DNA of 11,449 bases, taken from positions 1-11,449 of the forward strand of contig JADGJL010000973.1 in NCBI GenBank assembly GCA_027600665.1. Direction: 5' to 3'. Positions 3,124-11,374 of this stretch are shown here, in pieces (position 1 is the stretch's first letter; every line of letters starts with the position of its first letter). Under the pieces are notes generated by a model that had not been told where the DNA came from, searched no databases, and was given only the letters and a program-made list of their open reading frames with translations. This DNA comes from Irineochytrium annulatum. Taxonomy: Eukaryota > Chytridiomycota > Chytridiomycetes > Chytridiales > Chytridiaceae. Position numbers and translations under genes: made by a program.

Positions 3124-6027
3124 ATGGCGGCCCCCGACGCGCGATCGCGCCAGTCCGTCGACATTCTGCTCGTGCTGCCCTATTCCATGAACTACCAGGG
3201 GCAGCCGGACGCGCTGACAGTCGATGTGATAAGGAACGCGGCCGGCGTGCAGGTGGGGGACGAGAAGCGCGTCAAGCCCGTCGTAACCGCGTGTTTCCTC
3301 CGGCCAGGTGGCCGTCGCGGAACACAACAGCGACCCGAGGAGCAACTTCACCATCAGGCTCGTGCCGGTCGACAATTGGGACCCCACCGGCTCTGACGAC
3401 ACGAGCTTCGACTCCGGCGGCTTCTCGGCGGTTCAGGTTCACGAAGCGATTTTAAACAACAACGGTTTGGGCACTGAACGCGTTTCGCCACTCTAATGCC
3501 GCGTGTGCAGTCGCTGGGATCGTCGGGGACTACTTCTCGACAACAACCCTGTAAGTTTGGATACAAAGTGGCGTAAGCACTCACGCGCTTATCAGCTTCA
3601 CCGCGCAGGTTGCAGGATACTACCATGTTGGTAATGTTGCATTCAGATTAAGCTGATGTTGTTTAGAAACCGATGTGCGGAATGACTCAAGGCAGTACTA
3701 CGCTCTCAAACAAGGCCAATTACCCTTATTTCTGGCGATTGATGCCCTCGAAGGTGACACCTATATTATTAGGAAGCGTACTGACGTAGGTAGGGCCTCG
3801 GTTTGCATGTCATGGCGCTGTTTCGTCATTGGAATGTCAAGCGGTTCGCTATTATTGCTTCGGAATCCGACTCCTTCAGCCTAGCGTGTACGTATAACGA
3901 CCGATTTTTTTCTCGTCTGATAGTCTAACGACTCAATGTAGACGCTCGGGACGTAACAGACGCGGCCACCGCTGCCGGTGCTACGTGGACGCTCATCACT
4001 ACCACTCCCGACCAGGAAAGCGCTGGGGACTTCAGCTACGCGCTGAGGCAGCTTAACACATTAGACTACCGCTATATCTTTCTGTCCTATCAGCCGGACC
4101 TCATTAAGCCCTTCTACTTGGCTGCCTACAACGACAGCCTTGTCGACCCAGAGCATGTGTGGATCTCCTATAACCCGCCTTTTAATGCACCGACCGATTG
4201 TGAGTTTTGCGTGAATATAAGTTTCTATGTCTGTCGCGCTGAATACGTTGTTAGTCAACGATACGACGTTTGAACCGTTCGTCGGTTTCCAATTCATCGG
4301 AATGGCGGAAACTGTCAACAATACCGCCTGGGAAGGTGAGCGCCAGTTTGACTATGTCGCTGACTGCATATATTCAAGCGTTGAATCAAACTTACTACGA
4401 AATGAACGCCGTCGATCCGGCCACGTACCCCATTGACGAGAATTACCCCGGGGAGATGGTGTTGGCATACGACTGCCTCAAGGTCATGGCCAAGGGTCTT
4501 GAAGAGGCTTTGGCGGGCCAGCCGTCGGCGGACCCGCTCCAGCTTACAAGCGGTGTACTCGGCAATCAGTTGAACTTCACCGCATTCCAAAATACAGGTT
4601 TGTAAATGCATGCAATGACAAGATAAGCGTAACCACAATAACAGGATACGTCACGGTCGACTGGGGGTCATTTCAGCTGAATCAATATGGTAAACATCCT
4701 GCGCGACGTATACATTGTAACGCATCTTTTTGCTTTCAGGCGACGTGGCCGCACCCCGACTTTTCATGTCCCTTAACTTGAGCAATTACCAGAGATTCAA
4801 CTTCCTCGGCTATGAGGATGCCTTCGGGGAAACGAGCGCCGACGCCACCGAATGGTTTCAGTTTCCCGGCCCGCAGATATTCTACGGAGGTCAGGTTTTC
4901 CAATTAACCTCCTTTAACGCGATACTTGGAACAGGCACGTTAACGCCACCACCCGATCGCGGCATCCTCACGGAGTTGGGTATCTTCCCCAACACGCCCC
5001 TGGGCGACGTTGTGTGGCTTTTCCTCGCTGTCGGCATGTTAACCGTCGCGCTCACGCTGCTAAAGTTGCTGCACATGTTTGTTACGGTGCCGTCGTCGGC
5101 CCGCTGGCGGAGACAGCTGCCACTGATGCTCTTGACGGTAACGGGCTCGTTTTTAAGCCTGCTGTCGCTTGTGTGGGCCATTGGGAGAGTCACGCTTGAT
5201 TCTTGCAGGCTTAGGGTAGGGCTATGCGCGTTGGGGGTGTCGCTTGTGCTCGGGTTCGTCATGTTATCGAGGCGCTTTCGCTAAACTTGACTGTGCAGAC
5301 CACACCTAAGCTCAATCCTACATATCAATCAATGCAGACGGAACAGGTTGCGGAGGGACAAAGGAAATCCGATGATTGACTTTGCATGCGGGTTACTATT
5401 GAGCGCGATTGCTATCATTTTGATCTACGTAGGGCGGAACGCCTTTGAAAGCAAATGATTAACTCGACAACATTCATTCAAGTACGCTGAAAGATATTTT
5501 GCCACCGCTGACGGATGAAAATTAGGTTTGCAGTCTGAACGTTCAAAAAAGAGATTCTGCGCCTGTGCTGGCGATGTACGCTATTGAGATTTTTATCCTC
5601 CTTCTCTCGGCCGTCATGGAGAACAAGAAAAACCGAGAATTCAGCTTTCGGAATGGGTTTTACAAGGTACTCGTTGAACGGCGTGATTGCTTTCTCTATC
5701 TTACACTCTCAGTTTATGGTGCTTTGCATTGTCATTGTTAGTCTTATCAACGAAGCTACAACCGCGAGAATCTTTGTAACGGTATGACCGCAAAGTTTAG
5801 AGTATGTTAACCCTGTCCAGAATTTGGCCATCTTCTTCTTATCGATGTTATGCCTCCTTGGCGTAGCTATATTACTATTTTGGCCGAATTTAGTAGGTAC
5901 GACGGTGCTGGAAGCAACCCCGGAGACGGATGACTCGGATGACAACGAGCGAGAAGAACCAGCTTTAAGGAAATATGCGCCAAAGGCAGCCGCCTCCACG
6001 GAGCAATTTGTGCGCTCTCCTTTATGA
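3124..6027 (+). CDS. Class C (GABA-B/metabotropic-type) seven-transmembrane receptor with ANF/LIVBP-like ectodomain, about 15 exons
   Basis: Exons in my model: 3124-3252, 3308-3464, 3511-3550, 3596-3626, 3667-3753, 3794-3887, 3942-4199, 4255-4335, 4379-4597, 4645-4689, 4740-5262, 5299-5428, 5526-5666, 5713-5781 and 5821-6027. All phases agree, giving 736 residues. The ectodomain (about 10-460) reads as a ligand-binding receptor domain: VAVAEHNSDP, VAGIVGDYFSTTTL, LSNKANYPYFWRLMPS, FRHWNVKRFAIIASES, EHVWISYNPPF. Seven hydrophobic segments follow: about 470-491, 507-529, 537-554, 580-598, 611-629, 646-658 and 670-690, then an acidic tail. C536 at the start of TM3 and C600 in extracellular loop 2 match the conserved class C disulfide pair. 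The family acts at the plasma membrane and couples to heterotrimeric G proteins; the ligand is unknown. Weak points are the start (no signal peptide from the ATG at 3124), the donor GTTGGT at 3627, and the TM3-TM4 junction. At that junction an in-frame TAA at 5282-5284 must be spliced out with donor GTTATC at 5263. Without this splice the protein stops at residue 561 with three TM segments. Confidence 0.83.
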
Positions 6028-9012: not shown

Positions 9013-11374
9013 TCACTCAATATCACTGAGGAAGATATGAATCTCGTCATCTCCTCCAACCTCCTCGCCATCTTTCGCTGCCGCAAACAACGCCTCATCA
9101 TGTTCGCACCTCTCTATAACAGCCTTCTGAAGCTGTCTCCGGATCCGCGACCTCCTTGATAAAGGCCGGTGGTGCACATTGACCCTGTCCTTAATATTTC
9201 CCCAGTTATTCAGGACGTCGCCACGGACACACCGAATATCACCGCCGAATCTCCTCGTGGTCACTCCCACAAACGCAGGTAGGAATGCTGTCGCCCTTTG
9301 CTTGGTTGCGACATCATGACGCCAATGAACTTGAGTCAACCGGGTCATCTCCACCTCCCAATCACCATAACTGCAAAGCTGAGTTGGTGGGAGCCCGCGA
9401 CCTTGCTCCACTACCTCCATCTCATCACACACCAACATTGACTCACACGTCTTGGTAGGAGAGAAAGGTAAGGCACCAAGACCCTCCACATCATCCCTGA
9501 GCACGCCGCCAACCTTTCCTGCTTGAGCCCGATCAATGTTGACTTGAATTCCTTGGGAAATATTGTCGCTGTTGCTGTCGCAGACAATCCCACATGTTCC
9601 ACGCGTCCGCGCGGCCTTGGCGCTAATCTTAAGAGGCATATCTTTGTCGCTATCAATGACGATGGTTGGTTTCTGACGAACTCGAGCTTTGAGGGGCACG
9701 TCATCGTCGCTGTCGCTATCTTGGACTAGGATGGGTTGCTGGTGGATGCCCGTGACGGGGTGCGTAAGGGATTTGACGTCGTCGCCGTCGTCGCCGTCAT
9801 CCAAGGTAGAAGGAGCGGTTACTAGCCGTAAACCCGTCATTGCCCTCCCGCCACTGTAATTTCTCCGTCCTCCCTGCGTCATAACGAAGGCCGAAGAACG
9901 ATTCCGCTCCTCAACGGGCGCCTGAAGACGAGCTGCGCGCTCCGTAATAATCACCCTTGCGCGCACTTGCGCGACACCGGCCACCAAGGGCCGACCCTTC
10001 GCGTTCGCGAGTTGCTTAGGTCCGGTCGCGCGCTCCCTGTTCGCTACGCCGCCATCCCTCGACCGCACCGACGCGATCCTGGCCTTTGTGAAGTGCCTCT
10101 GCTGATTTTTGAGCTGCCAAGGACGTGTGCCAGCCGAGCGTACAGGCGGCGGACCGACGCAAGCACGGTCCGGCTTCTCGACGACGCGCACGACCGCTCT
10201 TGATGTCGCTGTGGTGGGCTTATCGAAGCTTGAAGTTTTTCCGACGTCCGGATGCTCATCGAGCAGGCTGCTCAAGTGCGTCCGGGGCATCTGCGGCGGA
10301 GACCGGCGGAAAGGGACGTCGGCGTGAAACTCCCACTGCTTCGTAGGCGGCAGAGGCGGCGGAGGGGGCGGCAACGAGGATTGATCCTTGTCGCTATTGA
10401 AGAAGCATGCCTGTGTTGCGGGCCGCATCAGTAGCGGAGGAGAAGCTTGCGGAAACAACATGGCCGGGTTATCCGCTTGGGCCGAATCGATGTGGGAGAA
10501 TGTCTTACGCAGACTCGGGTTTGATGGGGAAGCGAAATGGGTTGAGGAGAAACAGTGCTTGTTCTGCAACTTCTGCAGGCGCAGCTGGGAGGCCGACGTC
10601 ACTGACATTGTGACGGCTTTCGACTCAGGTGGCGCGGGTGGGGCGGGGAGGGCAGTTGATGCGGGTTGGGGATGTTTTCGTGGATCTCTGGGGTTTCCGG
10701 GTCGAGCGCCAACGTTCTGCTGCGGCACGGTCGCGACGGCGGGAAGAGGGGGGGAAGGTGGCGGTGGAAGATCAAAAGCGACGGGTTCGCTAATTGCAAC
10801 CGCGACGTTAATGTGTTCGGCAAAACGAGGCTGACGATCCCGCAGGTTGACGAGTCCACTGCCCACGTCTTGCTGCGGTGCGGTCACGACGTCGGGTGAT
10901 AGGGGCGGTGGCGGCGGTGGGGGCATGTCTAGACTGCGGGCAGCAGCGCGGTTCATGTCCCCACATGTCCAGCCCTGAAGGGGTTTCAGGGTCCCGCTCG
11001 ACGGACGAGGTGACTCCTGGCCCTTCAACGGTCTCGGTCCTTGATAGCCGTCATCGGCGTTGGTGCTGTGGCGGAACGTCGGCCCCGCCCCGTCCCAGTC
11101 CCACGGCTGGTGTGGCGGCCGGGATGGATTCGGCGAAATGCGGTTGCGATCGAGATGGGAAGGTAGGTTCCGCATCATCTTGTAAAGGGGATCGTCACAG
11201 CCATCGCGAGCGTCGGGGTGATGCCTGCTGAAGGAGAGGCAATTAATGACGGATGTTTTCAACGGTTATCGGCGACGATACATCGAAGACGGGACTAGAG
11301 GCTCACCTGGAGTAGGACGGCGGGATCCGACTGCTGCCGCTGCCGTCGTCGGAAGCCGGCCGTGTGGAGGTCAT
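9013..11374 (-). CDS. Large disordered proline-rich protein with an array of SUMO-interaction-like motifs, two exons
   Basis: Model on the minus strand: exon 1 11374-11307 (ATG, 22 codons plus 2 bases), an 82-nt GT..AG intron 11306-11225, and exon 2 11224-9013, giving 759 residues. The reading open to 11262 without the intron starts at TTG, so the spliced ATG is preferred. The first ATG inside exon 2 (11178) is a fallback. No enzymatic domain is visible. Poly-proline tracts lie at about residues 124-130, 176-181 and 308-316, and the first two sit in a 52-residue tandem duplication. A basic, Arg-rich middle (about 400-465) precedes three hydrophobic-plus-acidic motifs: PILVQDSDSDDD (520-531), PTIVIDSDKD (542-551) and GIVCDSNSDN (568-577). 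These match the type of SUMO-interacting motif in which a short V/I core precedes Asp/Ser. The C-terminal part is better ordered, with a basic helix-like segment (LSRRSRIRRQLQKAVIERCEHDEAL, shown here only as positions 711-735) and an acidic end, EIHIFLSDIE. A nuclear scaffold role is inference. Confidence 0.72.
10675..10929 (-). repeat. Internal tandem duplication (two copies, 156-bp period) within the proline-rich gene
   Basis: Copy 1 (10929-10831) and copy 2 (10773-10675) encode parallel segments: DMPPPPPPPLSPDVVTAPQQ then DVGSGLVNLRDRQ, and DLPPPPSPPLPAVATVPQQ then NVGARPGNPRDPR. The period is 52 residues. The resemblance also shows in the DNA, for example the stretches containing TTGCTGCGGTGCGGTCACGA and TCTGCTGCGGCACGGTCGCG. 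This indicates a fairly recent in-frame duplication. A weaker third proline block follows at residues about 214-222. Confidence 0.7.
11225..11230 (-). promoter_or_regulatory. Tandem NAGNAG splice acceptor
   Basis: The intron of the proline-rich gene ends CTTCAGCAG on the minus strand, so splicing can use either AG. Because exon 1 ends in phase 2, both choices stay in frame and differ by one serine at the junction. Confidence 0.5.

Follow-up and report, generated by a model that had tools for sequence, protein, structure and literature searches.

Class C G-protein-coupled receptors (GPCRs) have been described in early-diverging fungi as well as in animals. The accessible text of a 2012 report on early-diverging fungi lists 96 such receptors in four species, namely 78 in Allomyces, 14 in Spizellomyces, 3 in Batrachochytrium and 1 in Rhizopus (PMC3251606), and that of a 2025 survey gives 918 class 16 sequences across 1357 species, with enrichment in Blastocladiomycota and Chytridiomycota (PMC12842992). 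As far as these parts of the two papers describe it, receptors were selected by a 7tm_3 match together with the predicted number of helices (PMC3251606; PMC12842992). For the anaerobic gut fungi, about 100 class C receptors were reported, with a signal peptide identified in about 30% and, within the accessible text, none carrying an ANF-type ligand domain (PMC5168858).

Chytrids are among the fungi that retain many animal-type class C receptors. To our knowledge, no ligand has been assigned to any chytrid class C receptor, and none of the five papers listed in an open-literature search for Irineochytrium has a title on receptors. Here we describe a gene of Irineochytrium annulatum that is very likely a diverged GABA-B-like class C GPCR working by a mechanism of the family type. 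Class C receptors in chytrids are already documented, even in the portions of the surveys available to us, and the gene is therefore less surprising than a first-pass annotation of this DNA had implied (PMC3251606; PMC12842992); what is new is a diverged member of that set. The useful outcome is a corrected gene model and a reason for the gene's invisibility.

The locus and its gene model

The stretch of DNA analysed (the window; 11,449 nucleotides) is contig C1056 of the I. annulatum assembly, which comprises 26.9 Mb in 1082 contigs. The species belongs to Chytridiomycota, Chytridiales in the NCBI taxonomy, in keeping with the compact fungal genome that the first-pass annotation had supposed. 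The assembly contains bacterial sequence as well, since a bacterial rpoB frame, free of introns and 1188 aa long, lies on a 62.6-kb contig (C392:23500-28500, L037).

The receptor gene was modelled from reading frames and splice sites, followed by spliced alignment with a purpose-written aligner. The resulting model runs on the plus strand from an ATG at 3124 to a TGA at 6025-6027 and predicts 718 aa from 16 exons (Table 1), so that the coordinates proposed earlier are retained and the proposed translation of 736 residues is not. All 15 introns are GT-AG, 14 of them spanning 39-55 nt and one 97 nt, and every exon is open. An initial model of 726 aa, with a GC-AG intron at 5272-5337 and no intron at 4890-4934, was replaced for two reasons: the paralogs described below and the Rhizoclosmatium protein P0001 favour GT-AG introns at 5254-5298 and 4890-4934, and the spliced scores rose from 911 to 955 against the paralog on contig C308 and from 763 to 783 against that on C316. 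With intron 4890-4934 removed, the linker reads IFYGGTLTPPPDR, as in the relatives.

Table 1. Features of the receptor gene, in window coordinates.
Feature	Position	Strand	Basis
Whole receptor gene	3124..6027	+	Spliced model, paralog spliced alignments
Exon 1, start codon and first ligand-domain strand (SVDILLVLPYS)	3124..3252	+	Spliced model
Exon 2, ligand domain lobe 1	3308..3464	+	Spliced model; PF01094 residues 41-383
Exon 3, ligand domain	3511..3550	+	Spliced model
Exon 4, ligand domain	3596..3626	+	Spliced model
Exon 5, ligand domain (KPMCGMTQGSTTLSNKANYPYFWRLMPSK)	3667..3753	+	Spliced model
Exon 6, ligand domain	3794..3887	+	Spliced model
Exon 7, ligand domain, also in HK101_011957	3942..4199	+	Spliced model
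Exon 8, ligand domain, also in HK101_011957	4255..4335	+	Spliced model
Exon 9, ligand domain, also in HK101_011957	4379..4597	+	Spliced model
Exon 10, ligand domain, also in HK101_011957	4645..4689	+	Spliced model
Exon 11, ligand-domain end	4740..4889	+	Spliced model
45-nt intron, multiple of three, stop-free	4890..4934	+	P0001 alignment; same residue in C308, C316
Exon 12, GGxxPPPD linker, TM1, TM2, C521 before TM3, TM3 start	4935..5253	+	Spliced model, hydropathy
45-nt GT-AG intron in TM3	5254..5298	+	Same residue in C308, C316
Exon 13, TM3 end, basic intracellular loop 2, TM4	5299..5428	+	Spliced model, hydropathy
97-nt intron at extracellular loop 2, length outlier	5429..5525	+	Spliced model
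Exon 14, loop-2 C582 (IYVCSLNV), TM5, basic intracellular loop 3	5526..5666	+	C308, C232 joins
Exon 15, TM6	5713..5781	+	Spliced model, hydropathy
Exon 16, TM7 and acidic C-terminal tail of 48 residues	5821..6027	+	Spliced model, hydropathy

Elsewhere in the window, an aminopeptidase-P-like gene at 894-2902 on the minus strand is the divergent neighbour of the receptor gene, their start codons lying 221 bases apart; it has a Peptidase_M24 match (E 2e-24) and a second M24 piece (E 5e-4), its introns are short, and a hydrophobic stretch lies at its N-terminus. A proline-rich open frame of 750 aa occupies 9013-11265 on the minus strand; Pfam gives it no match at E<=1, and a genome search turned up no further copy at E<=0.001. 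The segment 8100-8580 is AT-richer and by eye contains scattered GGAACGGAAGCGGAATT-like words; no tandem array was reported there, and a DNA search returned the window copy alone. Neither Rfam nor a tRNA search gave a match in the window.

Ligand domain, linker and export signal

The N-terminal part of the 718-aa model matches PF01094 (ANF_receptor), the domain named in the earlier proposal, at 72.5 bits (cut-off 25.4; E 4e-20; residues 41-383); Peripla_BP_6 also matches (39.4 bits). Pfam gave no match to the cysteine-rich NCD3G domain in this model at E<=10. The linker GGTLTPPPDR, which follows the ligand domain, corresponds to PPADQT in GABA-B1 and PPKDKT in GABA-B2. Hydropathy (19-residue window, threshold 1.3) yields seven peaks, all past residue 400, at 455-473, 492-510, 525-543, 566-584, 593-611, 630-648 and 652-670, which bears out the earlier reading, in which seven hydrophobic segments are attached to a ligand domain. 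Lysine and arginine together number 4, 6 and 5 in the intracellular loops versus 3, 2 and 0 in the extracellular ones, a pattern that fits an N-terminus predicted to lie outside. At the level of sequence, this anatomy, comprising the gene structure by homology, the domain order and the seven hydrophobic segments, is established.

Two ligand-domain cysteines, C123 and C325, are invariant across the window gene, the paralogs on C308, C316 and C232, and P0001, and possibly form a disulfide specific to the fungal family. The ligand domain holds seven glycosylation sequons versus a shuffle mean of 3.8, a weak excess that 6.8% of 2000 shuffles reach.

A leader scan covering 14-60 residues within 500 nt upstream, with YAG acceptors, GTR donors and introns of 35-129 nt, found no signal peptide for the window gene or for C308, a very poor one for C316 (0.02) and a plausible one for C232 (2.71), against a background in which 2.6 is reached at 7% of 300 random positions. 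In the window gene and in C316, the start MAA stands directly before the first ligand-domain strand. Three accounts may be offered: a leader exon of another make-up or one lying further upstream, where it would overlap the divergent neighbour; an unusual mode of export; or decay of the gene. Since C308 and C316 are likewise without a clear leader, its absence is not peculiar to the window copy.

The 7TM half by profile

The first-pass annotation had let its reading hang on a PF00003 (7tm_3) hit in the C-terminal half, and here the outcome came close to contradicting it. The initial model had no 7tm_3 match, nor did the isolated C-terminal 289 aa of the 718-aa model at E<=10; the revised model as a whole gives a sub-threshold match of 13.4 bits (cut-off 33.5; E 0.062) over residues 451-672, covering model positions 5-250 of 251. 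The two nearest paralogs behave similarly, with 21.4 bits for C308 and no match at E<=10 for C316.

Profiles reach further. One built from the 7TM parts of this trio only, and therefore containing no strong 7tm_3 member, has its GABA-B1 match (E 3e-8) in profile positions 6-151 of 267, which correspond to TM1-TM4; all ten of its PDB matches at E<=10 are class C chains (six GABA-B1 and four mGluR1), the mGluR1 matches extending to TM7 at E 0.09-0.47. An hhalign comparison of the trio alignment with that of C232, C827, C733 and P0001 gave 97% probability (E 1e-10; columns 1-232 of 268). A family profile of five sequences, among them C232 and P0001 with strong 7tm_3 matches of their own, aligns to GABA-B2 through TM7 at E 1.2e-38 (profile positions 97-682 of 688), and the best 15 of the 55 PDB sequences listed for it are all GABA-B subunits. 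This evidence outweighs the weak 7tm_3 score, and the class C assignment made earlier stands: by profile, the predicted 7TM half is class C. The support is firmer for TM1-TM4 than for TM5-TM7, where it comes from the paralogs C308 and C316 and from profiles including C232 and P0001.

Paralogs and intron positions

The window gene aligns by spliced homology to C308 (score 955), C316 (783) and, along its length, C232 (538). Its 7TM part scores 195 on C308 and 173 on C316, where six shuffled queries on both loci score 35-62; its scores on 14 further locus strands lie at 38-56, apart from the loci of other class C genes (C827 102, C232 84, C26 76 and C733 69, with C603 at only 48). TM4-TM7 alone scores 124 on C308 and 91 on C316, versus maxima over 60 shuffles each of 52 and 54, the alignment on C316 using introns that differ from those of the spliced model, one of them 221 nt long. 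Against C232, TM4-TM7 alone scores 35, not above its 60 shuffles.

The aligner was blind to the intron positions of the window gene, and identity between the window gene and C308 is about 36-37%. Twelve of the 15 window introns nevertheless fall at the same residue in C308, as do six in C316 and four in C232; of the four that lie within TM3 or beyond it, C308 has all and C316 one. This intron sharing with C308, together with the conservation of TM4-TM7 in C308 and C316, is the main evidence that TM4-TM7 belongs to the gene. In a nine-row tree, the window gene, C308 and C316 form a clade with support 100/99 and C308 nearest, and three of the six inner branches are not resolved.

A 7tm_3 search of the genome gave at least 35 matches, merging to at least 21 loci, with at least 20 at E<1e-3; these counts are lower bounds from an exon-by-exon search in which only the best candidates were scored. 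C232 has a 7tm_3 match at E 3e-40. The window gene and C308 are missing from this list, and C316 appears only at E 0.03. Among single-sequence protein matches, the only one at E<=0.001 in 7994 scored candidates is P0001, a protein of Rhizoclosmatium sp. JEL0117 named 'Metabotropic GABA-B receptor subtype 2, isoform C' (E 1.6e-30; 24% identity over 71%).

The deposited protein

A profile search of the protein database retrieved HK101_011957 (P0002), a 386-aa protein of I. annulatum that can be read from the window without any mismatch. In the aligner's mapping, a two-residue leader is followed by sequence from within the ligand domain, the 45-nt intron 4890-4934 is retained as coding (reading GQVFQLTSFNAILGT), and the donor at 5254 is joined across a 643-nt jump to another reading frame of the last exon, a frame that differs from that of the TM7 exon. 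By reason of this start and this jump, the protein is without exons 1-6, exons 13-15 and most of exon 16, and it contains part of the ligand domain and TM1-TM3 with TM4-TM7 absent. The part of the ligand domain that it lacks is conserved in C308, C316, C232 and P0001. The record carries zero precomputed Pfam domains, and a predicted structure of P0002 with P0001 and P0004 was too poor for use (mean pLDDT 41.1, pTM 0.28). HK101_011957 appears to be mis-spliced. The first-pass annotation had joined the TM4-TM7 exons to the ectodomain; the deposited annotation skips this join, which is favoured by the conservation of those exons in the paralogs and by the matching intron positions in C308.

Splicing at extracellular loop 2

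The 97-nt intron 5429-5525 produces the join IY/VCSLNV, comparable to IY/ICSLSV in C308 and to IYVCQ in C232, and its Tyr/GT donor has counterparts in C308 (TAT/GTGGGC) and C316 (TAC/GTAGGT). With it, extracellular loop 2 falls short of its C308 and C232 counterparts by about 17-20 residues. The alternative is a 52-nt intron, 5482-5533 (GTACGC...TTGCAG), of the usual length and meeting TM5 in the correct frame; exon 5299-5481 would then contain an in-frame TGA at 5456-5458. On these comparisons, intron 5429-5525 is the probable choice. The C308 intron at this loop measures 112 nt with the window gene as guide and 55 nt with C232. The C308 locus (L028) was also seen to have a long open frame continuing past TM4 into the intron that precedes TM5, and its own loop-2 splice is ambiguous.

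The choice affects the cysteine pair that the first-pass annotation had named as C536 and C600, presumably C521 and C582 in the present numbering. C521, before TM3, is invariant in all five aligned rows. C582 aligns with a cysteine in C308, C232 and P0001, though not in C316, and depends on the 97-nt intron. Given the two splice readings of loop 2 and a signal peptide that was not found within 500 nt, the earlier description of the copy as intact is not established.

Discussion

If the window gene functions in the manner of its family, its two-lobed extracellular domain would close on a small ligand, and, because no cysteine-rich domain intervenes, the movement of the lobes would reach the 7TM bundle directly by way of the short linker GGTLTPPPDR. 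The receptor would probably act as a dimer, and its basic intracellular loops 2 and 3 may engage one of the organism's G-alpha proteins, for which the genome has at least four loci above the Pfam cut-off. We infer ligand gating, dimerisation and G-protein coupling by analogy with the family. In the alignment to GABA-B1, TQGST faces GSSSP and WRLMPS faces FRTHPS. The GSSS and FRTHPS stretches of GABA-B1 are ones that we take to line the GABA site, and their divergence in the window gene hints that GABA is not bound; the ligand is probably another.

Several other readings of the locus must be considered. It is unlikely, in our judgement, that the gene is a decaying or dead GABA-B-like copy whose true exon 13 runs to 5481, with translation stopping at the TGA 5456-5458 in loop 2 and the signal peptide lost. 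The 52-nt intron does have the usual length and leads in the right frame into TM5 at the cost of one stop, the 97-nt intron is an outlier among the 15, no signal peptide was found within 500 nt upstream, and the 7tm_3 score of the trio is weak or absent. Nevertheless, the 718-aa model has open exons throughout and only GT-AG introns, the donor at 5429 has its counterparts in C308 and C316, the IY/VCSL join restores the cysteine, and a clear leader is missing from C308 and C316 too. That the deposited 386-aa model is correct, the protein ending in a short unrelated tail after a partial ligand domain and TM1-TM3, is highly improbable. HK101_011957 is annotated in this way and has the donor 5254 in common with the 718-aa model, but the TM4-TM7 that it omits is conserved in C308 and C316 well above the shuffle maxima (124 and 91 versus 52 and 54), and the ligand-domain part missing from it is conserved in these two, C232 and P0001; in addition, it reads through the 45-nt intron and finishes in a frame other than that of the TM7 exon. 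The conserved exons and intron positions lead us to favour the 718-aa model.

The idea that a periplasmic-binding-protein-like domain is fused to an unrelated membrane domain, outside class C, drew on the non-significant single-sequence 7tm_3 score and on the C-terminal 289 aa without a match at E<=10. It is largely refuted, and we give it almost no weight: the trio-only profile matches class C chains only, hhalign joins the trio to the other class C sequences at E 1e-10, and the family profile matches GABA-B2. More tentatively, and with rather low expectation, we suggest that the window gene, C308 and C316 might represent a chytrid GABA-B-like subclade beyond the reach of 7tm_3, with no signal peptide of the usual kind and, for the window copy, hardly any extracellular loop 2. 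Its members could serve as hidden sensors, or else as partner subunits that do not signal; TM1 would act as a reverse signal anchor for their export, and they would respond to a non-amino-acid ligand. In that case, the numbers published for class C receptors in chytrids would be too low.

On the GABA-B-like reading that we prefer, the case points to a wrong public gene model. Such receptors escape surveys through very short introns, truncated gene models and diverged 7TM regions that fail the Pfam cut-off. As the gene lies below the 7tm_3 cut-off and the deposited protein has TM1-TM3 only, surveys selecting in the way that the available text of the two papers describes would be expected to miss it (PMC3251606; PMC12842992).

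Among known systems, GABA-B1 and GABA-B2 of animals are similar to the window gene in having a Venus-flytrap domain, a PPxD linker adjoining TM1, no cysteine-rich domain and a 7TM region. The relationship to GABA-B1 is distant, the single sequence of the initial model matching it at E 1e-4 over residues 82-255 only. In contrast to animal GABA-B receptors, the window model has a very short extracellular loop 2, a 48-residue tail and no signal peptide seen within 500 nt. Rhizoclosmatium P0001 resembles the window gene in its linker, GTTTPPPD, and differs in its strong 7tm_3 match (76 bits), longer loop 2 and long C-terminal tail. The gut-fungal receptors are likewise class C 7TM proteins of early-diverging fungi, whereas the window gene has an ANF-type ligand domain, a feature that sets it apart from them as far as the accessible text describes them (PMC5168858). 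In both its kind of architecture and its phylum, the window gene agrees with the fungal 'Glutamate' family, or class 16, GPCRs as presented in the available portions of the two surveys (PMC3251606; PMC12842992).
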